Positions 44,555-64,000 are shown, counted from the first letter of the stretch. The stretch is DNA of 64,000 nucleotides from a bacterium (GCA_018825665.1 JAHJEG010000001.1:1-64000); one strand, 5' to 3'. Notes: generated by a model from the letters alone, not told the origin. Made by a program: numbers and translations.

Positions 44555-46543
44555 TCACTTCTCAAATATTTGCGGATACTGAAGAATCGGCAAATATTCA
44601 GAATCGTAATTGTCTCCATTTTCAATTATGAGTGTCGGCGTAGTCCCGACACCTTTTAGAATCGTTTCGCTTTTGTCGTAGGGTCTGTCTGTGATAATAT
44701 CCCCAATCGCATACGGAGTGATATCATCCATATGCGTATAGCTTTCGTTCGTGTCTCTGTAATATTTAAAAGTAAAGGGAACTTCGCCAAAGTAATCTTT
44801 CCCTTTGGTATATCTCTGCGTCACCACCACCTTTTTATAACCTGCGGCTGCATCGAGTGATTCACTGCGGGTCGGGTACAGCAGGGCAGACTGTATATAG
44901 CGGTTCTTGTCCAGATAATCTTTTTTATGTGTAAACTCACGAATAAGCTTTAGTCTCAGAGTCTGAATCTCTTTTAATTTTGAAACGGAACTAAATTCAA
45001 GAGAGGGCATGGTATCGCTGTACCCATTTGATTTTTGAATGACACTGTGCAAATATCTTTCCATAGATTTGGGCATATCCCCAAAAAGAGAAGCCCCGAC
45101 CACATGATCTAAAAAGTATCTATACTCACCCATCTGGGCTTCACGGTTGAGCGGATCACCCATATTTGCAAAACCGCTTGTCTCATCATCTTTGGCATTG
45201 AGATTTTTGCTGTATCTCAAATAGTTCATCTCGCCCCAGCCCGAATCATCTGCAAACTTTCTTGCAAACGACCAAACCGTATCTATCGTGTTTCCTGTTC
45301 CGGATGTAAAGTGCTCGGGCTCAAATCCGTATGTCGAACTGTGACAGCCGACACATTGCATAAGTTCTTCGGATGTCTGCCCCCTCAGTGAGCCCTCTGC
45401 ATCTTCAATGAAACCCGACATCCACCAGCCTGCTCCATTGTCTATCCATGTTTCTTTTGAATTATAATACAGCGGTGCATCTTCATCTTTTGATATAGCC
45501 TCGCCTGGATAAAACATTTTGTACTTGACCATGTATCGTATCTCTTTGACCCTGTTTGCACGAAGACCCGGAAATTTATTTTGATGGGAGCTGTACATAT
45601 CCGCATCCACGTCCACATAATGCAGAGGATGGGCGAACTCGGTCTTTAGCGGAAACAGACCTCTGTCTATTTTCGTATCCCTGGCAAGACCTGCATAATA
45701 CAGTTCATGCGTCTGCAATCTGTCTTGAATCGCTTTTTCAAGAAGGCTGAGGTTCGTTTTGTATATTTGCAAATCAAATGCACCGCTCTCATCTTTCATA
45801 AACTTGGAATCAAGCCTGATATACACGCCGCTGACACTTCCGCTGTGGGGAGTAAATATACCATAGGGCATAAAATCAATACTTCTCCATCCAGTATTTT
45901 GGCCTATTTCATCCCCAAAAAGAGCTTCCTCCTGATTTTGGGTCCTGACAAACCCGTCTGAATCTGCCGGAAGAGATGCAGGGTTGAGAGCAGGAAAGAG
46001 TCTAAACGGATCATCTTTTATCCCGCTGTCGCTATGTGTCGGCTCCCCTTGTTTTTTATTGTAGGCCTCTTGCCAGTTGTCTTGTTTGATATATGTTTTC
46101 ATATCCCATTCTGAGGTGTTTATATCCAATTTTTGAAGCTCTTCATCGAGTTTATGGGGGAATATTGTATTTTCCCATGGATTCTTATTTGGAGACACCG
46201 CAAAACTGTTCACGGGTCCAAAAGCATAATCAAGCTGCAGGTTTCCTATTGCAGAATCAAGCCCCGCCTGAGGAAGAGTATTTCCCAAAGCCTTTCTCGC
46301 CGCAGCGTTTGAATGACAAAAAAGACAGGCATTCTGGGTTCCGTAAGAAGTTTCTATATAGCATTGTGCAGGAATATTGGCATAAGGATTCTCAAAGAGT
46401 GTACGGCTTCTGAATGCACCTGTCATCGGTGCTTTTGAAGTGCTGATACTATCGTTTTTCTGCATTGGGGATGTATCTGAAGGATTGCCGCAGGCAAGAA
46501 AAAAGAGTCCACTCATAAAAAGTAAAATTTTTGTATACATCAC
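44555..46543 (-). CDS. di-haem c-type cytochrome lipoprotein
   Basis: 662 residues. Lipoprotein signal with lipobox FLACG (Cys18). Two haem motifs: CLFCH (73-77) and CVGCH (396-400). The long region between has aromatic and Asp-rich segments but no domain I can name. It is therefore an outer- or inner-membrane-anchored periplasmic di-haem protein. It lies 68 nt downstream of phoX on the same strand, separated by a hairpin, and is probably co-transcribed. A redox partner in a phosphate-starvation operon is unusual. Confidence 0.75.
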   Translation of the reverse strand: MMYTKILLFMSGLFFLACGNPSDTSPMQKNDSISTSKAPMTGAFRSRTLFENPYANIPAQCYIETSYGTQNACLFCHSNAAARKALGNTLPQAGLDSAIGNLQLDYAFGPVNSFAVSPNKNPWENTIFPHKLDEELQKLDINTSEWDMKTYIKQDNWQEAYNKKQGEPTHSDSGIKDDPFRLFPALNPASLPADSDGFVRTQNQEEALFGDEIGQNTGWRSIDFMPYGIFTPHSGSVSGVYIRLDSKFMKDESGAFDLQIYKTNLSLLEKAIQDRLQTHELYYAGLARDTKIDRGLFPLKTEFAHPLHYVDVDADMYSSHQNKFPGLRANRVKEIRYMVKYKMFYPGEAISKDEDAPLYYNSKETWIDNGAGWWMSGFIEDAEGSLRGQTSEELMQCVGCHSSTYGFEPEHFTSGTGNTIDTVWSFARKFADDSGWGEMNYLRYSKNLNAKDDETSGFANMGDPLNREAQMGEYRYFLDHVVGASLFGDMPKSMERYLHSVIQKSNGYSDTMPSLEFSSVSKLKEIQTLRLKLIREFTHKKDYLDKNRYIQSALLYPTRSESLDAAAGYKKVVVTQRYTKGKDYFGEVPFTFKYYRDTNESYTHMDDITPYAIGDIITDRPYDKSETILKGVGTTPTLIIENGDNYDSEYLPILQYPQIFEK

Positions 46544-46580
46544 AAAGTACCTTGTTTTAATTTTTATAGATGGGCTTATG

Positions 46581-46608
46581 CAATAAGAGGCAGAGGGGCC
46601 TCTTATTG
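46581..46608 (-). terminator. intercistronic hairpin between phoX and the di-haem lipoprotein gene
   Basis: CAATAAGAGGC and GCCTCTTATTG form a perfect 11-bp stem with a 6-nt loop, directly after the phoX stop. There is no T run on the minus strand, so a processing or attenuating hairpin is likelier than full termination. Confidence 0.5.
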
Positions 46609-46611
46609 TGT

Positions 46612-48513
46612 TTATTTTATACCAGGTATTCCGCTGATATATCCAAATGGAGCGTTGAATTTATCTATTTTTCCCTCTACGGCATTTTTTACACTATCGG
46701 GTGTCGTCTTGGTAAAGTCGGCCAAATGTTGTGCATTACTCATGATATACGCATGTCCGTTCTCATTGTCAACTACCTGCAAGCCTGTAGCCTCTGCACC
46801 CGCCGGCAAAGACAAGATACGTGAAAGCTTCAGAGTATCTACATTGTACGCCCATACAAAGTTATTCGTATGCGTCCCGCTATCCTCACCGATAAAGAGT
46901 GTACGCATTTTGTCTGAGAAGAAAACATTATCGGTATTTGCTATCTTGTCAACCGAACATGTATTACCGTTTGCATCCGTTGCTATCTCCTCGCCTAAGA
47001 GTCCCGATGGCACATGCATACTTGTAGCTACAAGGTCAGAGGCAATCATATTTCCGTTGATATCTTTTTGCCCTGCGCTCAGAGATATCTCATACGTACC
47101 GCCACAGTTGTTTTTGGCGACTTTGATATGATCTATCTCAAAAGATCCGTCTTCCTTCATACCCTTGTCAATATAACTCATAGCCATATAAAGCTTCTTA
47201 TCCTGAGCGTTATACGCTACACCTTCCATCTTATTCCACTCCGTCGTCGCACCAAGCCATGCTGCATAACGTCTAGGCTCTAGAGCAGAGGCTACATCAT
47301 CCATCCCATCGACAAGTCTCAAGTATTCCGTACTTGTGCTTCCTGCTTTTAGAGCCTTGTATCCGGCTGGTAAAGTCCCGTTATAATCCGCAGGAGCAAT
47401 ATATTCAAAAATATCAGAGAATGTGTATATATCTTTGTACGATGCTACTTCTGCATTACTGTGGTGGCCAAGCTTCATCCATGTCAGGTACGCAGAACCG
47501 CCGTCCGTACTCCCTGGCGTGCTTGTCTGATTCCATTTTGCCGCATAGAGCGTTCCCGCACTTAAATCATTCGCTTTATCCGCAACATACATAAACATAC
47601 CGACATTGCTTCCGTCATCTCCAAAATAAGCCGTTTTCCCGTCATCAAGCACCTTGGCCATCTCCCAAGTACCTTTCCCCATAGAGTAGTGTTTTGTAAT
47701 TGTAGTGGATGCATCACTTTTGACTTCAACTTCAGTGATATAACCGTAGTCATAGGCTTTAGCCGTTTTCGTATTGTCAAAATACACTTCAGTCAATGCC
47801 TTGATTCCGGCTTCTGCACTTGCCAGGCTTGAACCGTTGCTTGCAGTGTAATACAGATCGTAATCTTCTTCGCTTCCCAAGTGTGTATTCCATGGTGTCT
47901 GAGAACCAAAACACGGTATCCATAATCCGTTTACACTTGAGAAATCAATCGCTTTTTGCTCACTCGCAATAAGCTTGCCGTCTGCATCCTGCTCTATGGA
48001 TGTCAAAAGCATACTCATAGGCATTCTTGAATACCATGACGGGTAACTATAGGCCTTTGAGCCGTCGCTTAATATCCAGTCATATTCAAGATGCGATACC
48101 AAGAACAGCTTGCCGCCTACATTCAAGAGTGAGTTTGAATCCGGAGTCTCAGCAAGTACAGGCTCATTCATCGGATCCAATACAGGTTCCATCTTGTAGT
48201 TATAAATCTGTCCTGCCTGATAAGGATTCGTACCAACCTTGTCTTTTACATTAAATAATGTAGTGTACGAAAGGTTATGCTCTGTGTATTCGGTTTCTGA
48301 AGTATATACACGTACTTTTGCATTCGAATAAGCACTGGACATCTCATCTGCACTCGAAGGTGCAGACATCCCTATAAATTCTACTTTCGTAGCTTCAACG
48401 CCGGCTGCAACAGCCGTAGTGTTACTATCTGTAGTGCTATCATCGTTTGCACAACCAACAAAACTAACTGCAAGTGCAGCTGCTGCTGCTAGAGAGATCC
48501 ATACATTCTTCAT
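46612..48513 (-). CDS. phoX: PhoX-family alkaline phosphatase (lipoprotein)
   Basis: 633 residues: lipoprotein signal ending FVGCANDD. PhoX/DUF839 family segments include IPCFGSQTPWNTHLGSEEDY (PhoX has a similar ...TPWGTW...EE motif), TTEWNKMEGVAYNAQDKKLY and RTLFIGEDSGTHTNNFVWAY. PhoX enzymes use Fe/Ca to release phosphate from organic esters in the periplasm. Most PhoX proteins are Tat-exported; this one has a Sec-type lipobox and no twin Arg, which is unusual for an Fe/Ca cofactor enzyme. Pho-box-like repeats lie upstream at 48557-48589. Confidence 0.82.
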   Translation of the reverse strand: MKNVWISLAAAAALAVSFVGCANDDSTTDSNTTAVAAGVEATKVEFIGMSAPSSADEMSSAYSNAKVRVYTSETEYTEHNLSYTTLFNVKDKVGTNPYQAGQIYNYKMEPVLDPMNEPVLAETPDSNSLLNVGGKLFLVSHLEYDWILSDGSKAYSYPSWYSRMPMSMLLTSIEQDADGKLIASEQKAIDFSSVNGLWIPCFGSQTPWNTHLGSEEDYDLYYTASNGSSLASAEAGIKALTEVYFDNTKTAKAYDYGYITEVEVKSDASTTITKHYSMGKGTWEMAKVLDDGKTAYFGDDGSNVGMFMYVADKANDLSAGTLYAAKWNQTSTPGSTDGGSAYLTWMKLGHHSNAEVASYKDIYTFSDIFEYIAPADYNGTLPAGYKALKAGSTSTEYLRLVDGMDDVASALEPRRYAAWLGATTEWNKMEGVAYNAQDKKLYMAMSYIDKGMKEDGSFEIDHIKVAKNNCGGTYEISLSAGQKDINGNMIASDLVATSMHVPSGLLGEEIATDANGNTCSVDKIANTDNVFFSDKMRTLFIGEDSGTHTNNFVWAYNVDTLKLSRILSLPAGAEATGLQVVDNENGHAYIMSNAQHLADFTKTTPDSVKNAVEGKIDKFNAPFGYISGIPGIK

Positions 48514-48544
48514 CTTTTTTTAATCCTTGTTATTTGATGCCGGA

Positions 48545-48589
48545 ATTCTATTTTGGCTTTATTACCTCTTTGTTACATTTTTATCACAT
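48545..48589 (-). promoter_or_regulatory. phoX promoter with three Pho-box-like 11-bp repeats
   Basis: Read on the minus strand: ATGTGATAAAA (48579-48589), ATGTAACAAAG (48568-48578), AGGTAATAAAG (48557-48567), 6 nt, then the -10 TAGAAT (48545-48550). Pho boxes are 11-bp direct repeats of CTGTCAT plus an AT-rich tetrad that replace the -35 box; these units fit the form xTGTxAy-AAAr. PhoB-type activation in low phosphate is inferred from the repeats and from the gene content. Confidence 0.6.
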
Positions 48590-48604
48590 TTGTATTGCTC
48601 ACGG

Positions 48605-48635
48605 TTACCGTTGAGATACAGCACTCTAACGGTAA
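48605..48635. repeat. imperfect inverted repeat in the phoX-olsF intergenic region
   Basis: TTACCGTTGAG (48605-48615) faces CTCTAACGGTAA (48624-48635), complementary except for one extra base. It lies between the two promoters and overlaps the upstream end of the olsF Pho-box-like repeats. It may be a second regulator site. Confidence 0.4.
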
Positions 48636-48663
48636 TGAAGCTGTAATAATTTGAGAGTACTAT
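48619..48663 (+). promoter_or_regulatory. olsF promoter with Pho-box-like 11-bp repeats
   Basis: CGGTAATGAAG (48630-48640) and CTGTAATAATT (48641-48651) repeat with an 11-bp period; a degenerate unit, CAGCACTCTAA, precedes them (48619-48629). After 6 nt comes TACTAT (48658-48663) as -10. The units resemble the CTGTCAT half-site of the Pho box. Spacing to the -10 is identical to that at phoX. Confidence 0.55.
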
Positions 48664-48690
48664 CCCAAAAATAACTTACAGGACACCTTT

Positions 48691-50415
48691 ATGATAGATG
48701 TAGAAAAAGAGATTTTTTCTAAGTTTCCAAAATTGCAAAAAAACAAACTCGTAAGAGATACGATCTCCAAATTTGCAAAGTCGATTATTCACCAGGATGA
48801 GATCAACAAGGCCCTAAACGAGATCCAACACCTGAGCGGTTTTGAGTTTGTAGATGCCGTAATGGATTACTTTGATTTTGATTTCAAGGTGAGTCAGAAC
48901 AGTTTGCAGAACATCCCCTCATCGGGAAAAGTAGTCATAATCGCAAACCACCCTCTTGGAGGATTGGACGGAATAGCTATTTTGAAGCTTGTCGGAAAAG
49001 TACGACAGGATGTAAAGATAATCGCCAATGATTTTTTAAACGGATTTGATGGGCTCAAGCCTCTTATGCTGAGCATAGACAATTTCAAAACCAGACAGAC
49101 AAAAGAATCTCTCAGCAATATTTATGAAGCACTCAACAATGAGCAGGCTGTGATTATCTTTCCAAGCGGTGAAGTCAGCAGAATGTCCCCTACAGGGGTC
49201 AAAGACAAATTTTGGCATAAAGGATTTCTAAAATTCGCATCCAGGACATCTTCGCCTATTCTGCCGATTTACATAGATGCAAAAAATTCAAAACGATTCT
49301 ATTCCATCTCGGCGATAAACAAAAAACTCTCTACTCTGCTTCTCGCGGATGAGATGTTTAGACAAAAATCCAAATCCATAGAGATGCATGTAGGCGAACT
49401 GATACCAAATGAAAATATTTTTCCAAAAGGGATAAAACAAAATGAGGTTGTAAACCTTTATAAAAAGCATTTGTACTCCATACCTAAAAAATACAGCTAT
49501 TTTATAACCCAAAAGTCCATATCGCACCCGCAGGACAGACGCTATATCAAACAAGAGCTGAAGGAATCCACCCTGCTTGGAGAGACAAAAGACGGTAAAA
49601 AGATTTATCTGTATGAATGCAAAAAGGATTCGAAGGTTCTTTATGAGATAGGACGCTTACGAGAGATCTCTTTTAGAAAAGTGGGTGAGGGAACCAACAA
49701 AAAAAGAGATATCGACGTCTATGACACCTATTACAAGCATATCGTGCTTTGGGATGATGAAGAGCTTGAAATCGTAGGCGCCTACAGAATCGCAGAGGTA
49801 AAAGATATCATAAAAACGTATGGCATAAGCGGGCTCTACACCTCCACTCTTTTTACTTTTGGTGAAAAATTCGACAAATATTTAGACGACTCCATAGAAC
49901 TTGGCAGAAGTTTTGTACAGCCCAAATACTGGGGAAGCAGAGCCCTTGATTACTTATGGTTTGGTATAGGAGCCTACTTAAAACACAATCCGCAGATAAA
50001 ATATATGTTCGGACCGGTTTCTCTGAGTGCTTCATACCAAAAAACAGCAAAAGATATAATCCTGTATTTTTACGACAGTTACTACGGAAGCAAAAAAACG
50101 CTTGTTTTGCCGAAAATACCTTACAACTTCAAACAGGAGAGTGATTTGATACGAACTCTGAAACATGAATTCAGCGAAGGTGATTACAAAGCAAATTTCA
50201 AACTTTTAAAAAATATGCTCAGTACTTTCAATGTGACTGTGCCTACGCTCTACAAACAGTATGCAGACCTTTGTGAAGAGGGCGGAATCGAGTTTTGCGC
50301 CTATAATGTGGACAAAGATTTCTCGGACTGTGTTGACAGTTTTATCCTTGTAAAAATAGATAAGATAAAAGAAGCTCAAAGAAAAAGATATATAGACAAC
50401 AATCTGGGTGCGTAA
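48691..50415 (+). CDS. olsF: OlsF-type bifunctional acyltransferase (ornithine lipid synthase)
   Basis: 574 residues. The N-terminal PlsC-like domain has the catalytic NHPLGGLD (86-93) and the FPSGEVSRM motif of lysophospholipid O-acyltransferases. The C-terminal domain (about 300-470) is a GNAT-fold acyl-ACP N-acyltransferase of the OlsB/Acetyltransf_5 type (GRLREISFRKVGEGT, YDTYYKHIVLWDDEE, ELGRSFVQPKYW). This fusion is the OlsF architecture, which makes ornithine lipids: N-acylation by the C-terminal part, then O-acylation by the N-terminal part. Ornithine lipids replace phospholipids in low phosphate, consistent with divergence from phoX. The amino acid acylated is not proven by sequence. 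Confidence 0.78.
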   Translation: MIDVEKEIFSKFPKLQKNKLVRDTISKFAKSIIHQDEINKALNEIQHLSGFEFVDAVMDYFDFDFKVSQNSLQNIPSSGKVVIIANHPLGGLDGIAILKLVGKVRQDVKIIANDFLNGFDGLKPLMLSIDNFKTRQTKESLSNIYEALNNEQAVIIFPSGEVSRMSPTGVKDKFWHKGFLKFASRTSSPILPIYIDAKNSKRFYSISAINKKLSTLLLADEMFRQKSKSIEMHVGELIPNENIFPKGIKQNEVVNLYKKHLYSIPKKYSYFITQKSISHPQDRRYIKQELKESTLLGETKDGKKIYLYECKKDSKVLYEIGRLREISFRKVGEGTNKKRDIDVYDTYYKHIVLWDDEELEIVGAYRIAEVKDIIKTYGISGLYTSTLFTFGEKFDKYLDDSIELGRSFVQPKYWGSRALDYLWFGIGAYLKHNPQIKYMFGPVSLSASYQKTAKDIILYFYDSYYGSKKTLVLPKIPYNFKQESDLIRTLKHEFSEGDYKANFKLLKNMLSTFNVTVPTLYKQYADLCEEGGIEFCAYNVDKDFSDCVDSFILVKIDKIKEAQRKRYIDNNLGA

Positions 50416-52311: not shown

Positions 52312-52899
52312 TTATTTCACTCCGTAATGAAGTAACGCTTTTGCTATTTTACTCATTGAAGAATCTTCCGATACCATTTGCAGTTTTTGATGTGCCTGAT
52401 CCATTTTTTTCTCATGCATAAGAAGAACGGCACTCTGAACCAGGGCAAGGTCTTTATAGATCACGCCTTGTTTTGAAGCATAGTTATTCAAGGATTTGAC
52501 ATCTTTTGCCAGTTCATAAGAAGCGATATCGCCTATAATCAGAGCTTTTGAACCTGTAAGCTCTTTGAGCGTTACCAGGTCTTTGTCTGCCACCGCTTTT
52601 GATAAAATCCAGACATCATAAAGTGTCGAACTTTGTGCTTTGAGTTCTGTAAGCGCCTGAGTATTGTTCGCATCTTTCACAAGCGCTCCAAGAGCCGCAT
52701 TTGCTGATGTTATTTTTGATTGTTTGTTTATATCATACGCTATATTCGCAGCTACGACCACAACAACCGCGACCAAAGAACCTATCATAAGATTCTTGTA
52801 TTTTTTAACGAATCTCTCCGTCATTACCGCTTTTTCAAAAAACTTTTCTTCAGAGTTCAACTCTTCTTTTACCATACCTATGTTGTCTTTTAAGCTCAA
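52312..52899 (-). CDS. YfgM-like membrane-anchored TPR protein
   Basis: 195 residues: a short cytoplasmic N-terminus, one membrane helix (about 37-55, MIGSLVAVVVVVAANIAY), and a periplasmic helical domain of degenerate TPR repeats (DLALVQSAVLLMHEKKMDQAHQKL). YfgM works with the SecYEG/PpiD translocon. The identity is inferred from layout and from the bamB-like neighbour 3 nt downstream. Confidence 0.65.
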   Translation of the reverse strand: MSLKDNIGMVKEELNSEEKFFEKAVMTERFVKKYKNLMIGSLVAVVVVVAANIAYDINKQSKITSANAALGALVKDANNTQALTELKAQSSTLYDVWILSKAVADKDLVTLKELTGSKALIIGDIASYELAKDVKSLNNYASKQGVIYKDLALVQSAVLLMHEKKMDQAHQKLQMVSEDSSMSKIAKALLHYGVK

Positions 52900-53007: not shown

Positions 53008-53042
53008 CTTATACCAAATTAATATTTTTAGGACTTATATAT

Positions 53043-54766: not shown

Positions 54767-56683
54767 CTAAACCTTCTGAAGATAGATAACACTCAGCGGC
54801 GGCAGTGTTATCTCTATCATATTTTTGCGTCCGTGACACTCTTGCGCATTTGTTTTAAGCTCCTCTTTTGCCTCAAAATCCCAACCCTGAAACATCTCTG
54901 ACTGAGAATTGAAAATCTCTTTATATACGCCTCTTGTAGGCATTCCAAGCTGATAGCCCACATGCTGTGTATCTGAAAAATTGCATACTACGATTACAGG
55001 TTTGTCTTTTGAAGTGCCTTTTCTTATAAAAGCAATCACATTGGCCTGATAGTCATTTTCATCAATCCATTCAAATCCTTTTACATCCGTATCGTATTTA
55101 TGTAAGGACGGCTCCTCTTTGTAGAGTTTGTTCAGCGTCTTCAATAGTGTTTGGATACCTCTGTTCTTCTCTTCATGAAGCAGATGCCAGTCTAAGCTTT
55201 GCTCGTAGTTCCACTCGGCGAACTGTGCAAACTCACCGCCCATAAAAAGAAGCTTTTTCCCGGGATGGGCTATCATAAACGCAAACATAGCACGTAAATT
55301 TGCGAACTTCTGATTATAGTCTCCCGGCATTTTGTTGATCAGCGAGCCTTTCATATGCACAACTTCATCATGGCTCAGGGGTAAGATGTAGTTTTCCTTG
55401 TACATATATACGAAACTGAAGGTCAGTATATTGTGGTGATGCTGTCTGTGAATCGGATCATTTTTAAAGTACTTCAGGGTGTCATGCATCCAGCCCATAT
55501 TCCATTTATAGCCAAAACCAAGCCCGCCCACATCGACAGGACGGCTAACCATAGGAAAAGCCGTTGATTCTTCTGCAAACATCATTATGTCTTTAAATTC
55601 CCCGTATACACTTGTATTTAGCTGTTTTAAAAACTTGATAGCTCCAAGATTTTTGTTACCGCCAAATTCATTTGCAATCCATGCGCCGTCTTCTCTTGCA
55701 TAATCCAAATGAAGCATCGAAGCAACAGCGTCCACGCGTATACCGTCTATATGGTATTTGTCAAGCCAAAACATTGCAGAGCTTATCAAAAAAGCTCGGA
55801 CTTCATTTCTCTCATAATTAAAAATAGCACTTTTCCATTCAGGATGGTATCCCAGACGCGGGTCTTCATGCTCATATAAGCAGGTACCGTCAAAATTCAT
55901 AAGTCCATGTCCGTCTGTCACAAAATGCGACGGGACCCAGTCCAAAATCACGCCGATTCCGTGCTGATGCATAATATCTACAAAACACATAAAATCATGA
56001 GGCGTTCCGTATCGGGAAGTCGGAGCAAAATATCCTGTCACCTGATAGCCCCAAGAACCTTCAAAAGGAAATTCTGTTATGGGTAATAATTCCACATGAG
56101 TAAAATGCATCTCACATAAATACTCAGCAAGTTCCTGTGCGGATTCTTTATATGTTAAAAAGCGGTTCCCCTCTTCTACTTTTCGTCTCCAAGAGCCAAG
56201 GTGAACCTCATAAATCGACTGGGCTGATTTATGTGAATTGTTTTTGCGGCGGGTTTTCATCCACGCATCATCAGTCCAGTCAAAATCATCTAAAGCACAG
56301 ATACGAGAGGCAGAGTTCGGAGCAACTTCGGCAAAAAAAGCATAAGGGTCCGCCTTGTCCGGATTTGCATTTTCTCCGGCAGTCTGTATGTGGTATTTAT
56401 AGGTCATCCCGTTGTTTGCACCGCACACAAAACCTTCCCATATTCCAGACCCGTCATTACGCATTTTCAAAGGATGGGAAGAGATATCGTAATTGTTAAA
56501 TTCAGCCCGCAGTGATACAGCCTGTGCATTTGGCGCCCAAACTGAAAAGTACACGCCGGCCTCATTGTTTCGCTCCATGTGATGAGCTCCCAAATGTTCA
56601 TAAAGCTTACTGTGCGAACCCTCTTTGAAGAGGTAGATATCGAGATCACTAAAACGACTCACATCATGATACATAGGATACAT
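54767..56683 (-). CDS. glgB: 1,4-alpha-glucan branching enzyme
   Basis: 638 residues: N-terminal CBM48 (VYFSVWAPNAQAVSLRAEFN), then a GH13 barrel with nucleophile Asp in DGIRVDAVASML, acid Glu in MFAEESTAFP and transition-state Asp in LSHDEVVH, and a C-terminal beta domain. It creates alpha-1,6 branches in glycogen. Last gene of the minus-strand glycogen operon, 11 nt after the first glgA. Confidence 0.95.
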   Translation of the reverse strand: MYPMYHDVSRFSDLDIYLFKEGSHSKLYEHLGAHHMERNNEAGVYFSVWAPNAQAVSLRAEFNNYDISSHPLKMRNDGSGIWEGFVCGANNGMTYKYHIQTAGENANPDKADPYAFFAEVAPNSASRICALDDFDWTDDAWMKTRRKNNSHKSAQSIYEVHLGSWRRKVEEGNRFLTYKESAQELAEYLCEMHFTHVELLPITEFPFEGSWGYQVTGYFAPTSRYGTPHDFMCFVDIMHQHGIGVILDWVPSHFVTDGHGLMNFDGTCLYEHEDPRLGYHPEWKSAIFNYERNEVRAFLISSAMFWLDKYHIDGIRVDAVASMLHLDYAREDGAWIANEFGGNKNLGAIKFLKQLNTSVYGEFKDIMMFAEESTAFPMVSRPVDVGGLGFGYKWNMGWMHDTLKYFKNDPIHRQHHHNILTFSFVYMYKENYILPLSHDEVVHMKGSLINKMPGDYNQKFANLRAMFAFMIAHPGKKLLFMGGEFAQFAEWNYEQSLDWHLLHEEKNRGIQTLLKTLNKLYKEEPSLHKYDTDVKGFEWIDENDYQANVIAFIRKGTSKDKPVIVVCNFSDTQHVGYQLGMPTRGVYKEIFNSQSEMFQGWDFEAKEELKTNAQECHGRKNMIEITLPPLSVIYLQKV

Positions 56684-56694
56684 TATTTATTCCT

Positions 56695-58164
56695 TTACTT
56701 AGTATGTTTGGCTAAAGCGTATTTGTATACGTCTTCATAAGCCAATGCCGCATCTCTCCAACTAAAATGGTTTTTCATTGCCCTTTTTTGCATCGAAAGA
56801 AAGGCTTTTTGATTGTTTTTATACACTCCCACAGCCCACATCACGGTATGATAAAGAGCGTCGTGCGTAGGTGCATAAAATTTGAATCCGTTGCCGCTGT
56901 TATGCGCCTCGTCAAAATTTTCTATGGTATCATCAAGACCGCCTGTGGCGCGCACGATAGGCAGGGTACCATAGCGAAGGCTGTATATCTGATTCAGTCC
57001 GCATGGCTCAAAAAGTGAAGGCATCAAAAACATGTCGCATCCAGCCTCTATCTGGTGCGCCAAAGCGTCAGAATATCCTACATGCAAGGCAAACTTATCA
57101 GAATGACGACCCGATATCTCACCAAAATAATGTTCTGCCCACTTTTCACCGGTTCCAAGCATCACTATCTGTAAGTCCTGCTGCATCAGACCGCTGATTA
57201 TTCCGGCAATGAGTCCTATCCCTTTTTGCGTTGCAAAGCGTCCTACAAAACCAATAAGCGGCACATCATCGCGCAGCTCAAGTCCAAAGTGTTTTTGCAA
57301 AGCCCGTTTGCATTCGAGTTTTCCATTCATATTGCCGATATCGAAATGTTCGGCTATATGCTTATCGACTGCCGGAGACCATTCATCATAATCGACACCG
57401 TTTAAGATTCCGAACAATTTGCTTGCATGTGCACGGATATGATGCTCCATACCAAATCCAAATTCTGAGGTCTGAATCTCCTGAGCGTAGCGTTTGGAGA
57501 CAGTGGTAACGGCATCGGCATGTGCAATTCCCCCTTTTAAGAGGTTTAACCTGTCATGACTTTCAAACTCCATAGGATTAAAATGGTGCCATCCAATTTC
57601 CATCACATCCATTCCGCCTTTATAAAAGTTCCCCTGATGTTCAAGATTATGAATCGTCAAAACAGTTCCCGCATTTGAAAAGTCTTCTGCAAACCTTGTT
57701 TTGCTTAAAAGCGGCAAGGATGCTGTATGCCAGTCATTTGCATGGATAATATCGGGCTTGAAATCAAGCATTTTACAAAGCTGCAAAGATGCCTTGGACA
57801 AAAAGATAAAACGGTTATCATTGTCTTCATACGGTGTGCCGTTTTCATCATATAGACTTCTGCGTCCGTAGAAATGCTCATAATCTATAAAATAGACACT
57901 CACTTCGCTTTGCGGAAGCTTTGTGGTGAATACTCCGGCCCATAGTTCACCCATTGGTCCCATAGGAACGCCAAGGGCACCATCGACATGTGTCAGTTTA
58001 CTTTTATCGATCTGATAATATCTCGGCATAACGACGATGATGTTATGGCCAAGCTCTTTGAGCGCTTTTGGAAGAACTCCTGCGACATCGGCCAAACCGC
58101 CGGTCTTTGCATACGGAAAAACTTCAGATGCTACAAACAAGATATTTAGTTTTTTCTTAGACAT
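56695..58164 (-). CDS. glgA: glycogen synthase GlgA (copy 1)
   Basis: 489 residues, GT5. The ADP-glucose motif KTGG is in VFPYAKTGGLADVAGVLP; C-terminal SLFEPCGLNQIYSLRYGTLPIVRATGGLDDT carries the E-x7-E motif and the second glycine loop. It extends alpha-1,4-glucan. It lies 9 nt after a second, clearly diverged glgA, so the two are not a recent duplication. Confidence 0.93.
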   Translation of the reverse strand: MSKKKLNILFVASEVFPYAKTGGLADVAGVLPKALKELGHNIIVVMPRYYQIDKSKLTHVDGALGVPMGPMGELWAGVFTTKLPQSEVSVYFIDYEHFYGRRSLYDENGTPYEDNDNRFIFLSKASLQLCKMLDFKPDIIHANDWHTASLPLLSKTRFAEDFSNAGTVLTIHNLEHQGNFYKGGMDVMEIGWHHFNPMEFESHDRLNLLKGGIAHADAVTTVSKRYAQEIQTSEFGFGMEHHIRAHASKLFGILNGVDYDEWSPAVDKHIAEHFDIGNMNGKLECKRALQKHFGLELRDDVPLIGFVGRFATQKGIGLIAGIISGLMQQDLQIVMLGTGEKWAEHYFGEISGRHSDKFALHVGYSDALAHQIEAGCDMFLMPSLFEPCGLNQIYSLRYGTLPIVRATGGLDDTIENFDEAHNSGNGFKFYAPTHDALYHTVMWAVGVYKNNQKAFLSMQKRAMKNHFSWRDAALAYEDVYKYALAKHTK

Positions 58165-58173
58165 TTCAATCCC

Positions 58174-59571
58174 TTAACAAACAGTATTTTTATACAACTC
58201 TACATAGGACTTGGCACTTTTTTCAAATGAAAAGTCGCAGGCCATATTAAAACGGATGAGCTCATCCATCTTTTTCTTATTGCGTTTTAATTCCAAAGCT
58301 CTCTCGATTGCATCCATAAAAGCTTTTTTGGAAGCTTTTGTAAACACTATCCCCCTGCCGCATTCCTCTTTGTCTTCATGAACACTGTCATAAAGACCTC
58401 CCACCGCATGAACGACAGGTACCGTGGCATATCGCATAGCTATCATCTGATTTAGCCCGCACGGCTCAAAAAGTGATGGCATCAGTAAAAAATCACCCGC
58501 CGCATAAACCTGATGCGAAAGTTTTTCATTGTATCCGTAGAGCATACAAAAATTATCATGTTTATCTGCGACTTCTTCAAGCTTTTGTCTGTATCCGCTT
58601 GCACCCTCGACCAAAATAAGCAAATTAAGCCTTTTTTTGAGCATCGGCTTTATCGACTCCAACAGAAGATCAAAACCTTTTTGATGAACAAGTCTGCTCA
58701 CCATTACAAAGAGCGGGATTCTTGGATCTTTGAGTCCGAGCTTTTTCACCAAGCCCTTTTTGTTTAGATATTTGTCTTCCAGATTTTTACCGTCATAATT
58801 GTATTCCAAATCATCATCGGCATGTGGATTAAATGTCGAAACGTCTATTCCGTTTAAAATACCGAAAAGTTTCTTGGAATGATGTTTTAAAAAACCTTCA
58901 AGCCCGCATCCAAACCTGCTTGTTAAAATCTCTTTTGCATATCTCGGGCTTACGGTGGTAATCACATCGCTGTACGCGATTCCCGCTTTCATAAAATTTA
59001 CACTGCCGTAGAACTCGATTCCCTCCATTGTGAAATATTTTTCATCTATGCCCAGACGCGACAGAGAAGAAATATCAAAGACACCCTGATATGCAAGATT
59101 ATGGATACTAAATACTGTTTTGATATCTAAATTCTTCTCTTGCACCATCAAGGGAACCAGGGCCGTATGCCAGTCGTTGAGATGAAGCAACTCTATTTGA
59201 AGCTTTTGGGCGAGTTCTACAATAGAGGCGCAAAAAATACCGAATCTTAAATCGTTATTTGAAAAATCCCCATTTTCATCACCGTATAAACTTTGCGTAT
59301 GGCTAAGCATAGGAGCATGCACAAAATAGATCTTTACACCATCGCTAAGAGATGAAAAAATTTCAACCTCATAATCCACTCCGCCCAGATATACGCTAAA
59401 AGCCAAATCTTCTTTTTTTAAAGAAGAGTTTTGCATAAAACCGTATAAGGGCATGACACAGGATACATCCAGTTCTTTTGAGAGATATTTTGGCAGAGTT
59501 CCGGCTACATCGGCCAGTCCTCCACTCTTGGCATGTGGAAATATTTCGCTTGCTGCAAAAAGAGTTTTCAT
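58174..59571 (-). CDS. glgA: glycogen synthase GlgA (copy 2)
   Basis: 465 residues, GT5, with KSGG instead of KTGG (IFPHAKSGGLADVAGTLP) and SLFEPCGLNQMIAMRYATVPVVHAVGGLYDS. Both active-site regions are intact, so it should be active, perhaps with a different donor or primer preference. The uptake-like motif falls on the PHAK codons beside the donor site, where copy 1 has PYAK. It overlaps galT by 1 nt. Confidence 0.92.
   Translation of the reverse strand: MKTLFAASEIFPHAKSGGLADVAGTLPKYLSKELDVSCVMPLYGFMQNSSLKKEDLAFSVYLGGVDYEVEIFSSLSDGVKIYFVHAPMLSHTQSLYGDENGDFSNNDLRFGIFCASIVELAQKLQIELLHLNDWHTALVPLMVQEKNLDIKTVFSIHNLAYQGVFDISSLSRLGIDEKYFTMEGIEFYGSVNFMKAGIAYSDVITTVSPRYAKEILTSRFGCGLEGFLKHHSKKLFGILNGIDVSTFNPHADDDLEYNYDGKNLEDKYLNKKGLVKKLGLKDPRIPLFVMVSRLVHQKGFDLLLESIKPMLKKRLNLLILVEGASGYRQKLEEVADKHDNFCMLYGYNEKLSHQVYAAGDFLLMPSLFEPCGLNQMIAMRYATVPVVHAVGGLYDSVHEDKEECGRGIVFTKASKKAFMDAIERALELKRNKKKMDELIRFNMACDFSFEKSAKSYVELYKNTVC
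58819..58828 (+). repeat. GGCATGTGGA motif (coding)
   Basis: 10-mer followed by T in glgA copy 2, read as Pro-His-Ala. Confidence 0.9.
59530..59540 (+). repeat. GGCATGTGGAA motif (coding)
   Basis: 11-mer at the 5' end of glgA copy 2, read as Pro-His-Ala (residues 12-14). Confidence 0.9.
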
Positions 59572-60593
59572 CAGTTCCCCTTTGAATTAAGAAGTGTTGC
59601 ACACTCTTCCGGAGACACTGGATTTATTGCCATTGCTGTTGAAATCTCAAATCCGCCTATCCTGTAAATACGCGGAGTGATTCGAACCGTAAAGCGGTAG
59701 TTCTTATTCAGATACGGCATAAATGTTTCATTGTCAAAATTTGGGTTAAGAGGTGCAAGTCCAAAGAACAGATTATAATCAAAATTACCCAATTGCTTGC
59801 TGTATTTTTTAAAAACCTTTTTGAAGAGCAGCGAGAGATCGATTATATCATCCCTTGTACACTCATCCAAACTGGAATAATTTTTCTTTGGTGCTATCAT
59901 CACTTCAAAAGGAAAACTGCTCGCATACGGACAAAAAGCCACAAAATTGCCTATCTCTTCAATCACCCTTTTTTTATTGTTCATTTCGTTTTGCACAATA
60001 TCTTCTATGATTCCACGTCCGTGGCGACGATAATAACGCATATTCCTGTCTATAAATATCAACTCGTTTGGAGGCATAACGGGTAATGCAAGTATTTGGG
60101 TATGCGGATGTTCCTGTGTCGCTCCGGCAGTTTGCCCGGAGTTTTTAAAGACGCTTAGATGGATAAGTCTTTTGTCTTTTTTCAAATCCTTAATACGGAT
60201 AATGATACTTCGAAGCCAGTTCTCAATTGCATGTACATCCAAAGCTTCAATCCCGCATTCGTGGCATGTGGAATCTATAAGTACCTCGTGTGCCCCGACT
60301 CCAGGGATAGATTCAAACATCCCGTCCCTGCGTGATTTGTTTTCAAGTTCAACCTGTACGGCCTTATAAAGATTTGGAACTATACGGGTTTTCCATCCGC
60401 TGCTGTTGGCATTATTATCACGAATAGCATACACCTCAGGAGGGGTCAGTGACTCATTTCCTTCACAAAACGGGCATTTGGCCTTGGGAATATTTAATTT
60501 CTTTTCTACAGCCAAATCAGGTCTGTGCAGCCTCTCCGGTGCGATTAGAACATATTGATTATGAATCCTATCCCTTCTAATCTCAGACATCAA
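59571..60593 (-). CDS. galT: galactose-1-phosphate uridylyltransferase family protein
   Basis: 340 residues: RIHNQYVLIAPERLHRPDL start, zinc-ligand CPFCEGNE, and the nucleophilic His in EHPHTQI (HPH). GalT exchanges UDP between glucose-1-P and galactose-1-P. Relatives act as ADP-glucose/glucose-1-phosphate adenylyl-transferring enzymes, and within a glycogen operon lacking a visible glgC such a role is possible. It overlaps the GH57 gene upstream by 11 nt. Confidence 0.85.
   Translation of the reverse strand: MMSEIRRDRIHNQYVLIAPERLHRPDLAVEKKLNIPKAKCPFCEGNESLTPPEVYAIRDNNANSSGWKTRIVPNLYKAVQVELENKSRRDGMFESIPGVGAHEVLIDSTCHECGIEALDVHAIENWLRSIIIRIKDLKKDKRLIHLSVFKNSGQTAGATQEHPHTQILALPVMPPNELIFIDRNMRYYRRHGRGIIEDIVQNEMNNKKRVIEEIGNFVAFCPYASSFPFEVMIAPKKNYSSLDECTRDDIIDLSLLFKKVFKKYSKQLGNFDYNLFFGLAPLNPNFDNETFMPYLNKNYRFTVRITPRIYRIGGFEISTAMAINPVSPEECATLLNSKGN
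60263..60273 (+). repeat. GGCATGTGGAA motif (coding)
   Basis: 11-mer in galT, read as Ser-Thr-Cys. Confidence 0.9.
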
Positions 60594-62613
60594 AGACTCC
60601 CAATAGCATTTTTAGATTGACTTGGGATGCAAAACTGTATGAGAATATAATCGAAATCTGTTGTGCGACCGCCTCAAATCCGCTCTCATTTTGTGAAATC
60701 GTATTGAGAATATACGCGTGAACATCGCATGTCTCACTACTTGATAAGACAATTCTTTTGTTTGTGAATGTATCTATTATCTCCAAGGTGTCCACTCCAT
60801 ACAGACTTAATCCCTCTTCGATCTTCACACCGTTTAATGTCGCCAGCTTTGGATGTGCCAAATGAAAGTTAAACTCCATCCCGTAATAGAGTTTCTCTTC
60901 ACAGATACTCTTTACACTCAGCTCAAGACCTACACCCGCATCTTCAAAGGTATACCTTTTTTCCATGCTTGCGGCATAGTTTTTCTCAAGGTAGAAGCCT
61001 CCATCCCTGTAAAAAGTATTCGTTTGCGCATCAAGCTCAAAAGCCTGGTTTGCAAAATCACCAACTTCATGAAACGAAACTTTTTTAAAATTATCCAGAG
61101 TAAAACCGTCCGTACTGAAATGATCGACAAAAGAGTGTTTAGGGTGCCAGTCATAAATCAGCTGTTCTTTGAGCGTGTCATTTACCTCTGCCCCGTCATT
61201 ATGTATCGTGGCAATCTCATCATCGCTGTTTATGCGCTCATGTACCTCTTTTGGATGAAGTATTTTTTCGTGATAGGCTTCTTCTCTGCGCATAAGCGTA
61301 TTTTGCCAGTTAAACAAAACGTCAAGTGAACCAAACTCAAGCATCTGTCCGCCAAATTTGCCTGAAAAGACAAGAGAAAGTGATTTACTCAGCACTTTGA
61401 GCTCTTCATATCCGTCTTGGTCTATATCTTTTACAAGACAAGATATCTTTTTCCTGCTGTAAAACTTTTCAATCTCAAGTAAGTACCTATAGGCATTATC
61501 GCGTAAATTTGGAAGGTAAAGCCCCCCGAAAACTCCATGCCAGAATACGTCATTTGTCTGAAGTTTATAAAGACTCTGCAGAGACTTTTTATCAAGCTTA
61601 TGCTGATTTTTACTGTGAAACAACATTCTTTTGTGAAGATAATTGCTCTCATGGTATTTGATAAAGAAATTTTTCCATATGCCGCCTTTTATAAAAGCAA
61701 CTCCCATAGTATTAAAATACTCAGTTCCCACCTGCTCTTTGAGCGCTTCAAGAGCCAGAGTCTGCTCACTTCGTAAACTCCACTCACCCATCTCAAAATA
61801 CGAGGTATTGTTGAGATACGCTATCCCTTTTGAACGGTTTTGCCCAAGATATTCGCTGTAATGCTGTGTTTGGATCTTATCATTTTTCAAGACTGCTTCA
61901 AGAAAATTTTCCAGCCATTTTTTCTCATATACCCATTCATTTGTTTTTGGCCAAAGACCGAATTTTTCACCGTCATCAAAAATAATCGCGGCAGAGTTCT
62001 CATCTTTTGCACATGCCAAGATAGCATCGATGGAGCGCTCAACGCTGAAAAAAGGCAATGCATATCTAAGAGACTGAGAAATAGGAAAAAGAGCCAGAGG
62101 AGTTCCCCCCTCTTCGGTCACATAATATCCGTCCATATCTTTTGCACTAAAACCGCTGCTTAAAAAATGGTAGTCATCCACTACCGCATAAGAGATATCA
62201 CAGGCATTCAAATCGGGTACTATCGATGATTCCCAGACTCTCTCTGTGAGCCATAACCCGTTTGGTGTTGTTTTTAGGTGCTTTTTGATATATGCATTTA
62301 ACTGATTAATCTGCGCTCTTCTGTCGCATGAGGGAATGGCACTGAGTATCGGTTCATAGTATCCTGCACCTATCCATTCAATCGAACCGAATTTTGTCAA
62401 TTTTTTTATATTTGCAAATATTTTCGGATGCTTCGTTCTTATCACGTCCAAAAGCCATCCGCTGCAGTGAACTGCAAATTTAAAATCCGGATATCTTGCC
62501 ATGGTTTCAAAAAACGGCGCATAACAAAGCTCTATAGCCTCATCGACCGCATCCCCGAAATTATCTATCGGCTGATGCATATGCACACCAAACAACAAAG
62601 AAACTTTACTCAT
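60583..62613 (-). CDS. GH57 4-alpha-glucanotransferase / alpha-amylase
   Basis: 676 residues. The GH57 barrel starts LLFGVHMHQPIDNFGD; the nucleophile Glu is in LTERVWESS (about 123) and the acid Asp in IIFDDGEKFGLW (about 214). DUF1925- and DUF1926-type domains follow, the layout of Thermococcus-type 4-alpha-glucanotransferases. It transfers or releases maltooligosaccharides during glycogen turnover. It lies 12 nt after the next GH57 gene. Confidence 0.88.
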   Translation of the reverse strand: MSKVSLLFGVHMHQPIDNFGDAVDEAIELCYAPFFETMARYPDFKFAVHCSGWLLDVIRTKHPKIFANIKKLTKFGSIEWIGAGYYEPILSAIPSCDRRAQINQLNAYIKKHLKTTPNGLWLTERVWESSIVPDLNACDISYAVVDDYHFLSSGFSAKDMDGYYVTEEGGTPLALFPISQSLRYALPFFSVERSIDAILACAKDENSAAIIFDDGEKFGLWPKTNEWVYEKKWLENFLEAVLKNDKIQTQHYSEYLGQNRSKGIAYLNNTSYFEMGEWSLRSEQTLALEALKEQVGTEYFNTMGVAFIKGGIWKNFFIKYHESNYLHKRMLFHSKNQHKLDKKSLQSLYKLQTNDVFWHGVFGGLYLPNLRDNAYRYLLEIEKFYSRKKISCLVKDIDQDGYEELKVLSKSLSLVFSGKFGGQMLEFGSLDVLFNWQNTLMRREEAYHEKILHPKEVHERINSDDEIATIHNDGAEVNDTLKEQLIYDWHPKHSFVDHFSTDGFTLDNFKKVSFHEVGDFANQAFELDAQTNTFYRDGGFYLEKNYAASMEKRYTFEDAGVGLELSVKSICEEKLYYGMEFNFHLAHPKLATLNGVKIEEGLSLYGVDTLEIIDTFTNKRIVLSSSETCDVHAYILNTISQNESGFEAVAQQISIIFSYSFASQVNLKMLLGVFDV

Positions 62614-62625
62614 ATTTTTACCACC

Positions 62626-64000
62626 TTAAACAAACCAGTTTTCATTATAATTAGTCGTTAAATCAATTTCAAGTTCTCCAAAACCCGGAAGTGACTGCAC
62701 AACAATGCTCTTTTTATAAAGTTCAAATCTAAACTGTACTTTTTGAGCCTGTATGGTACTTTTATCCACACCTATCTCAAGCCACTCTTCACATGCTACC
62801 TTTAAAGAGATATCATTAAAATACTCCTGCACATGCGTATCCTTGCAATTATGGACAATGATAGTCTCATTGAATCCAAGCGGCTCGATAATAATCCGCA
62901 GATAATCACACTCATATAACTGAGTCATATCCGAATCAAATGCGAAATAGATATTTTCCTCATTCTGTCCGTATAATATTTTGCGAACAGGACCGCGAAC
63001 CTTGTCCATAGTAGAAAAAAGCTTTGTCTCATCAACAACACCACACCCGATCCATTCAAAAAACGAATCATGCTTACCGTCAATATCGGGATAGATATGC
63101 GACTGCGGTTTCAGCCAAAAGTCTTGAGAGCTTTTATTTTCTATAATAGGCCTAAACAAATCAGAGGGAGGGCTTATCTCCATCAGATCGTATATTGAGA
63201 TCAGGTGGGAACGAAACAGAGTGTCAAACTCAAGACCAAAATCCGTGAAATGGTCATCTCCGTACCACCAAAACCAGTCCGAACACTCGGCTGCGAGGAA
63301 ATGCTCTGTTATTTTCGCTTTTACACTTTCATCCAGAAGCTGTTTATGATGTTCATAATCCCATTTGCTCATATAAATAAGTTCCCAGGCACGCGTCTTT
63401 TCATTATGCCCCACCCAGGTGTTAAACTCTCCGTGGATCCAGCTTCCGGGTGCTATATGTTCAAGAGTCTGCGCTTCAAGCTTTGCCACATCATCCATAT
63501 GTACCGTTTCGCACCAGGCCGTTTCACTGAGTTTGCTATAAAGGGAATCAAAAAAATCAAAACCGTTATTACTGAAAAACTCCCAGGCATTTTCACCGTC
63601 TAAAATAACAAAAACCACGCCCTGGGGATTGGATGTATTTATCTTTTGAAGTGAAGATATAAAGTGTTCGCTGGCTTTTTGCGGCTCCCAGAACCTGTAT
63701 GTAAATCCGATTAAATCGCTGATGCCGTGATCTCTGAATCCTATACACATCTCTTTGTAATCATAAGGTGTGTATAGCAGACCCCTGTCGTCGGAATGTT
63801 TAGATTTAAAAAGAATAGCCTCGTCTGTCGCTATCCATTTTATTCCGCACTGTTTCAAAAGTGCGATACTTTTTTCATCTACCGCTCCCTCCGCCGGCCA
63901 GAAACCCTCAGGGATAAAGCCGAAGGTTTCAATAAAAAGCTCCTTGGCTCTTTGAACCTGCAGCAAAGCATCCTCCTGCAGAGGTATGTGCTGCTGTGGG
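62626..64000 (-). CDS. GH57 family glycosidase, 5' part beyond the window
   Basis: The frame is open to the right edge, so the gene is truncated by the window; the TTG at 63966 is not taken as the start. At least 457 residues are visible. GFWPAEGAVDEKSIALLKQCGIKWIATDEAI and VFVILDGENAWEF are GH57 signatures; the latter holds the catalytic Asp (LDGENAWE). WFWWYGDDHFTD and a C-terminal beta domain follow. The close relatives are GH57 amylases and related alpha-glucan enzymes. It would be the first visible gene of the glycogen operon. Confidence 0.85.
   Translation of the reverse strand, partial: PQQHIPLQEDALLQVQRAKELFIETFGFIPEGFWPAEGAVDEKSIALLKQCGIKWIATDEAILFKSKHSDDRGLLYTPYDYKEMCIGFRDHGISDLIGFTYRFWEPQKASEHFISSLQKINTSNPQGVVFVILDGENAWEFFSNNGFDFFDSLYSKLSETAWCETVHMDDVAKLEAQTLEHIAPGSWIHGEFNTWVGHNEKTRAWELIYMSKWDYEHHKQLLDESVKAKITEHFLAAECSDWFWWYGDDHFTDFGLEFDTLFRSHLISIYDLMEISPPSDLFRPIIENKSSQDFWLKPQSHIYPDIDGKHDSFFEWIGCGVVDETKLFSTMDKVRGPVRKILYGQNEENIYFAFDSDMTQLYECDYLRIIIEPLGFNETIIVHNCKDTHVQEYFNDISLKVACEEWLEIGVDKSTIQAQKVQFRFELYKKSIVVQSLPGFGELEIDLTTNYNENWFV

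Follow-up and report, generated by a model that had tools for sequence, protein, structure and literature searches.

Predicted Pho boxes upstream of divergent phoX-like and olsF genes in a genome probably of the sulfur-metabolising Campylobacterota

The window analyzed in this study, a stretch of 64,000 nucleotides, is contig C25 of a 2.34-Mb bacterial assembly. A gene for a phoX-like phosphatase (46612-48513, minus strand) is followed on the same strand by a second gene, for a two-haem lipoprotein (44555-46543). The gene olsF, for a bifunctional ornithine-lipid synthase (48691-50415, plus strand), diverges from this pair across an intergenic region at 48514-48690. This layout had been proposed in an earlier examination of the same DNA (hereafter the sequence-only reading), and its coordinates were confirmed. 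The closest named relatives of the OlsF protein were found in assemblies of Epsilonproteobacteria, Sulfurospirillum, Sulfurovum and Sulfuricurvum, which points to a host among the sulfur-metabolising Campylobacterota.

The phosphatase matched the PhoX family (PF05787) with 63.4 bits against a gathering cutoff of 24, over part of the profile, the second half being weak (7.7 bits). Seven of its residues, C201, E216, E284, D300, K428, E430 and D528, are invariant in 19 divergent homologues and align with C179, E194, E273, D292, R385, E387 and D479 of 3zwu, the PhoX of Pseudomonas fluorescens (3zwu/4amf). All seven metal or catalytic positions tested are conserved in the window protein, with Lys in place of R385. 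The same R385-to-Lys change has been reported for Psip1, an active Fe/Ca phosphatase of picocyanobacteria (PMC11098088). The window protein differs from both of these enzymes in being a Sec lipoprotein, in its low overall identity and in its obligate-looking haem partner. Since its signal (MKNVWISLAAAAALAVSFVGC, lipobox VGC) contains no twin arginine, it was filed in a divergent clade. The PF05787 proteins of Campylobacterota in fact form two groups: a canonical one (L193-L219), with a twin-arginine signal in 21 of the 22 genes with a complete N-terminus (N-termini read by eye), and a divergent one, including the window protein, which lacks that signal and consists mostly of lipoproteins. Campylobacter jejuni, of the same phylum, places phoX and pst under a phosphate two-component system, PhosS/PhosR (PMC3197622). 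Its PhoX, however, is canonical, Tat-exported and without a haem partner. Single-sequence AlphaFold models of the window proteins had a mean pLDDT of 33 (phoX) and 30 (haem protein).

The haem protein has CxxCH motifs at residues 73-77 and 397-401, both invariant in the family alignment (A2), and matched no Pfam or NCBIfam family above cutoff. No relative came up when the PDB was searched with a profile of the haem family. Weak matches to PF16694 (cytochrome P460) were obtained around the second CxxCH in 17 of 19 family members. The best of them reached E 1e-6, below cutoff where shown, and the window protein gave no match even at E 1; the proteins do not qualify as cytochromes P460. The sequence-only reading had named the haem protein but offered no explanation of it. 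At 20 loci picked on PF05787 alone (L223-L242), divergent PhoX had a two-haem neighbour in 17. The figure was 19/20 in an earlier set (L173-L192), a partly selected count because those loci were picked with partial knowledge of the haem matches. Canonical Tat-exported PhoX had no such neighbour at any of 27 loci (L193-L219), with flanks of about 1.5 kb at most canonical loci as against about 3 kb or more at most divergent ones, the adjacent gene being covered in both. In one genus (L185, L186) the PhoX partner is a two-haem protein of the CCP/MauG type instead of the new family, and at three loci (L173, L174, L182) such a protein comes as the third gene, the assignment being by similarity in L174 and L186. 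CCP/MauG-type enzymes can thus occupy the same genomic place as the new family or come after it. A class-level sample of 369 gammaproteobacterial genomes contained the haem family in 18, and at 8 of the 12 loci inspected there PhoX was the neighbour; the family was found in none of 30 OlsF-bearing genomes of other phyla, a sample that is not representative.

At one locus (L183, 2660-9208) the PhoX/haem pair stands beside genes for a TonB-dependent receptor, a beta-propeller phytase (identified by family search) and ExbB/ExbD-like proteins, and the gene order is the same at another (L191, 2215-8719). These are likely loci for the uptake of phytate or organic phosphate, and their make-up supports a role of the pair in organic phosphate use. 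This bears on the identity of the phoX-like protein, which might be a beta-propeller enzyme of another kind, such as an oxidoreductase acting together with the haem protein, in which case the Pho box described below would serve a different phosphorus-related reaction. Its distance from PhoX proteins that have been characterised (63 bits over part of the profile), its export by Sec rather than Tat and its fixed two-haem partnership, whether with the new family or with the CCP/MauG type, would fit such an enzyme. They have to be set against the invariance of the seven 3zwu-matching positions in the 19 divergent homologues, the Lys substitution shared with an active phosphatase (PMC11098088) and the phytase and TonB receptor adjoining the pair in L183. 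We therefore regard this explanation as unlikely and take the protein to be a putative phosphatase.

A Sec-exported PhoX would have to take up its iron in the periplasm, in cells that live microaerobically or anaerobically. On this ground we tentatively propose, as one possibility among others, that the two-haem protein serves the Sec-exported PhoX clade specifically as a redox partner, oxidising or otherwise maturing its iron centre, and that a CCP/MauG-type enzyme takes over this part in some genomes. If true, a maturation step of a major phosphatase family would so far have gone unrecognised. No description of the PhoX and two-haem pair was found in the open-licence literature searched, relative to which it is new, and this study brings the conserved combination of phosphatase and haem protein to attention.

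The OlsF protein scored 807 bits with the equivalog model NF052615 (curated cutoff, 620) over residues 1-568. It contains an N-terminal acyltransferase domain (PF19576, 22-260) and a C-terminal GNAT domain (PF13444, 323-423), and is also matched by PF01553. It is predicted to make ornithine lipid. OlsF-like matches, mostly strong and full-length, were present in 118 of the 151 genomes of the family. The sequence-only reading had remarked that ornithine lipids are not commonly discussed for this phylum. This remark is outdated, since ornithine lipids have already been measured in Sulfurimonas gotlandica, at about 40% of its lipids (PMC9789136). In Vibrio cholerae, ornithine lipid is made at low phosphate by the OlsF-type synthase VC0489 in a PhoB-dependent manner, while another OlsF is under salinity control (PMC12186959), and an olsF mutant of Desulfovibrio grows more poorly when phosphate is low (PMC5193443). 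The window olsF resembles VC0489 in this respect, except that the PhoB link is experimental there and predicted here, and that the window gene diverges from phoX.

Both promoters in the intergenic region are built on tandem 11-bp direct repeats ending 6 nt before a -10 hexamer, as the sequence-only reading had described exactly to the base. For phoX, on the minus strand, three repeats at 48557-48589, namely ATGTGATAAAA (48589-48579), ATGTAACAAAG (48578-48568) and AGGTAATAAAG (48567-48557), precede TAGAAT (48550-48545). For olsF, on the plus strand, two repeats at 48630-48651, CGGTAATGAAG (48630-48640) and CTGTAATAATT (48641-48651), precede TACTAT (48658-48663). The Escherichia coli Pho box is likewise made of 11-bp direct repeat units (PMC4415409), which take over the position of the -35 element, the final core lying about 10 nt ahead of the -10 hexamer. 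Both window promoters have this construction, with at least two direct units and about 10 nt from core to hexamer. Their core, however, is TGTAAY and not the CTGTCAT of E. coli. Since the consensus of Pho boxes differs between species, as reviewed, the different core is no defining failure, and we interpret the repeats as predicted PhoB-type Pho boxes. An inverted pair, TTACCGTT / AACGGTAA, also lies between the promoters (48605-48635), its right arm reaching into the first olsF repeat; it is possibly a further operator.

A similar geometry was seen upstream of the canonical PhoX loci L203, L204 and L210, which have AAGTTTCCAAA-AAGTTTCCAAA-N6-TATACT, that is, the 11-bp period and 6-nt spacing of the window with the core AGTTTC instead of TGTAAY. 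On comparison of these promoters, the Pho box thus seems to have kept its geometry within the phylum but changed its core.

The same box was found at the pst locus of the genome, as had been suggested as a check. Contig C18 carries pstC-pstA-pstB-phoU, pstS, a Pit-like transporter gene, two polyphosphate kinase 2-like genes, a porin gene and a gene for a PhoB-like regulator (the Pit, Ppk2 and porin names were read from the sequence, without a family search). Ahead of pstS, pstC, the porin gene and the regulator gene alike, two 11-bp units with a TGTAAY core are followed by 6 nt and a -10 hexamer. As in the E. coli Pho regulon, boxes therefore precede pst, porin, phosphatase and regulator genes. 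A first box pattern, which was too strict at variable bases and gave background-level counts, was replaced by a weight matrix trained solely on these four C18 promoters. Among about 128,000 window positions, this matrix ranked the phoX box (48578, minus strand) first and the olsF box (48630, plus strand) second; with the term for the -10 hexamer removed, they ranked fourth and second, respectively. Their scores of about 17 are below those of the pst boxes (24-32), and 17.4 was reached once in ten shuffled windows. The third-best site of the window, at 53017 (minus strand), upstream of 52312-52899, reads TTGGTATAAGA TTGTAACAAAA, 6 nt, TATATT; this may be a chance match.

A search of the full 2.34-Mb genome with the pattern KGTAAY-N5-KGTAAY-N10-TANNNT gave seven exact matches, at pstC, pstS, the porin gene, phoX, olsF and two more places. 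With one mismatch allowed, 16 matches were obtained against 3 in the reversed control. Since the pattern was composed once the phoX, olsF and pst sites were known, what it contributes independently are the two extra sites and the control. One extra match (L246, C24:138501) precedes a gene for a secreted protein of 233 aa; the other (L249, C42:8509) precedes a gene for a short secreted protein, followed by one for an RND-like transporter. Both are candidates for further Pho promoters.

Most olsF orthologues and most divergent-clade phoX genes in Campylobacterota are preceded by the same box and spacing. The pst-trained matrix gave median scores of 14.5 for the regions ahead of olsF (40 genes) and 12.3 for those ahead of divergent-clade phoX (41 genes), compared with 0.8 for 311 other genes, which come from the same loci as the olsF genes scored. 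The Mann-Whitney p values against the other genes (5e-14 for olsF, 4e-17 for phoX) are nominal, the sequences being related. The haem genes had a median of 2.1, as expected for the second gene of an operon. The box lies mostly 23-40 nt ahead of the start codon. The matrix found no recognisable box upstream of several olsF orthologues (e.g. L076, L077, L079, L084), and Pho regulation of olsF is therefore not universal. The compact divergent module which the sequence-only reading had emphasised is not conserved either. The genes phoX and olsF are seldom physically linked (4/37 phoX genomes; G000, G002, G004, G020), and in the three linked genomes other than the host the haem gene lies between phoX and olsF on the same strand. 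Linkage of olsF to phosphate genes takes other forms. A Sulfurovum locus (L026) has the order pstS-pstC-pstA-pstB-phoU-regulator-olsF-regulator, both regulators being of the PhoB type, and in Sulfurospirillum (L016) olsF diverges from phoU-regulator-kinase.

The absence of a PhoB-family regulator from the genome would have spoken against the proposal, and such regulators are present. A PhoB/PhoR-like regulator-kinase pair lies at C54:28720-30780, and its response regulator and histidine kinase are 63% and 45% identical, respectively, to the L016 pair next to phoU and olsF. A box-like sequence, GTGAAACCAAA-TTGTAACCCAC, 7 nt, TAGAAT, stands ahead of the C54 pair. The second response regulator, on C18 beside pstS, is 52% identical to that of C54. 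The best regulator of the genome scored 189 bits with the PhoB model, under the cutoff of 296; in control genomes, 12 of 14 matched this model, only 2 of them above cutoff.

The pst-shared boxes, the regulators and the retention of the box in relatives largely support the proposal of the sequence-only reading that phosphate scavenging and a lipid swap occur together. Very probably, a regulator of the PhoB/PhosR type activates both divergent promoters at low phosphate. When phosphate is scarce, the phosphorylated homologue would occupy both boxes in 48514-48690, where the tandem TGTAAY units, ending 6 nt before the -10 hexamer, would stand in for the -35 element, and would recruit RNA polymerase to both promoters. 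One promoter would then drive phoX together with the haem gene, and PhoX, located in the periplasm, would cleave organic phosphate. The other would drive olsF, and phosphorus-free ornithine lipids would replace, and so spare, phospholipid. The expectation of binding and of a phosphate response rests on knowledge of the Pho regulon (PMC4415409) and on the control of OlsF by PhoB in V. cholerae (PMC12186959).

It is worth noting that the genome encodes twelve or more full-length regulators of the OmpR/PhoB type. Another OmpR-family regulator, answering to a redox or salinity signal, might bind the repeats, the likeness to the pst boxes then reflecting the relatedness of regulators. The salinity-controlled second OlsF of V. 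cholerae (PMC12186959) offers a precedent, and the 40% ornithine lipids of S. gotlandica were found on nitrate, with phosphate limitation unreported in the accessible part of that source (PMC9789136). The occurrence of the same box at pstS, pstC, the porin gene and the PhoB-like regulator gene, and of olsF inside pst/phoU/regulator clusters of other genera, makes this distinctly improbable. Chance similarity in AT-rich intergenic DNA, conceivable for a short motif in an AT-rich genome and in view of the one shuffled window in ten, is excluded in practice by conservation at the same spacing in orthologues, and two independent promoters 80 bp apart hold the two top scores.

Pho-regulated synthesis of ornithine lipids and PhosR control of phoX and pst are each known already, separately. 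New relative to the open-licence literature searched are TGTAAY as the putative Pho box of sulfur-type Campylobacterota and the predicted, widespread membership of olsF in the Pho regulon. With the former, promoters of the phosphate regulon could be recognised by a definite rule in the non-pathogenic Campylobacterota, a group plentiful in sulfidic waters. The latter predicts that most of these bacteria are able to swap phospholipid for ornithine lipid once phosphate is exhausted.

Two further observations were made. Second OlsF-like genes in six genomes (G059, G079, G091, G006, G034, G054) have ORFs of 710-739 aa, about 150 aa above the usual length, suggesting an extra domain. A glycogen-type cluster at 54767-63966 of the window contains genes for a branching enzyme, two adjoining glycogen synthase-like proteins, a galactose-1-phosphate uridylyltransferase-like protein and a glucan-active enzyme, all names being read from the sequence only.
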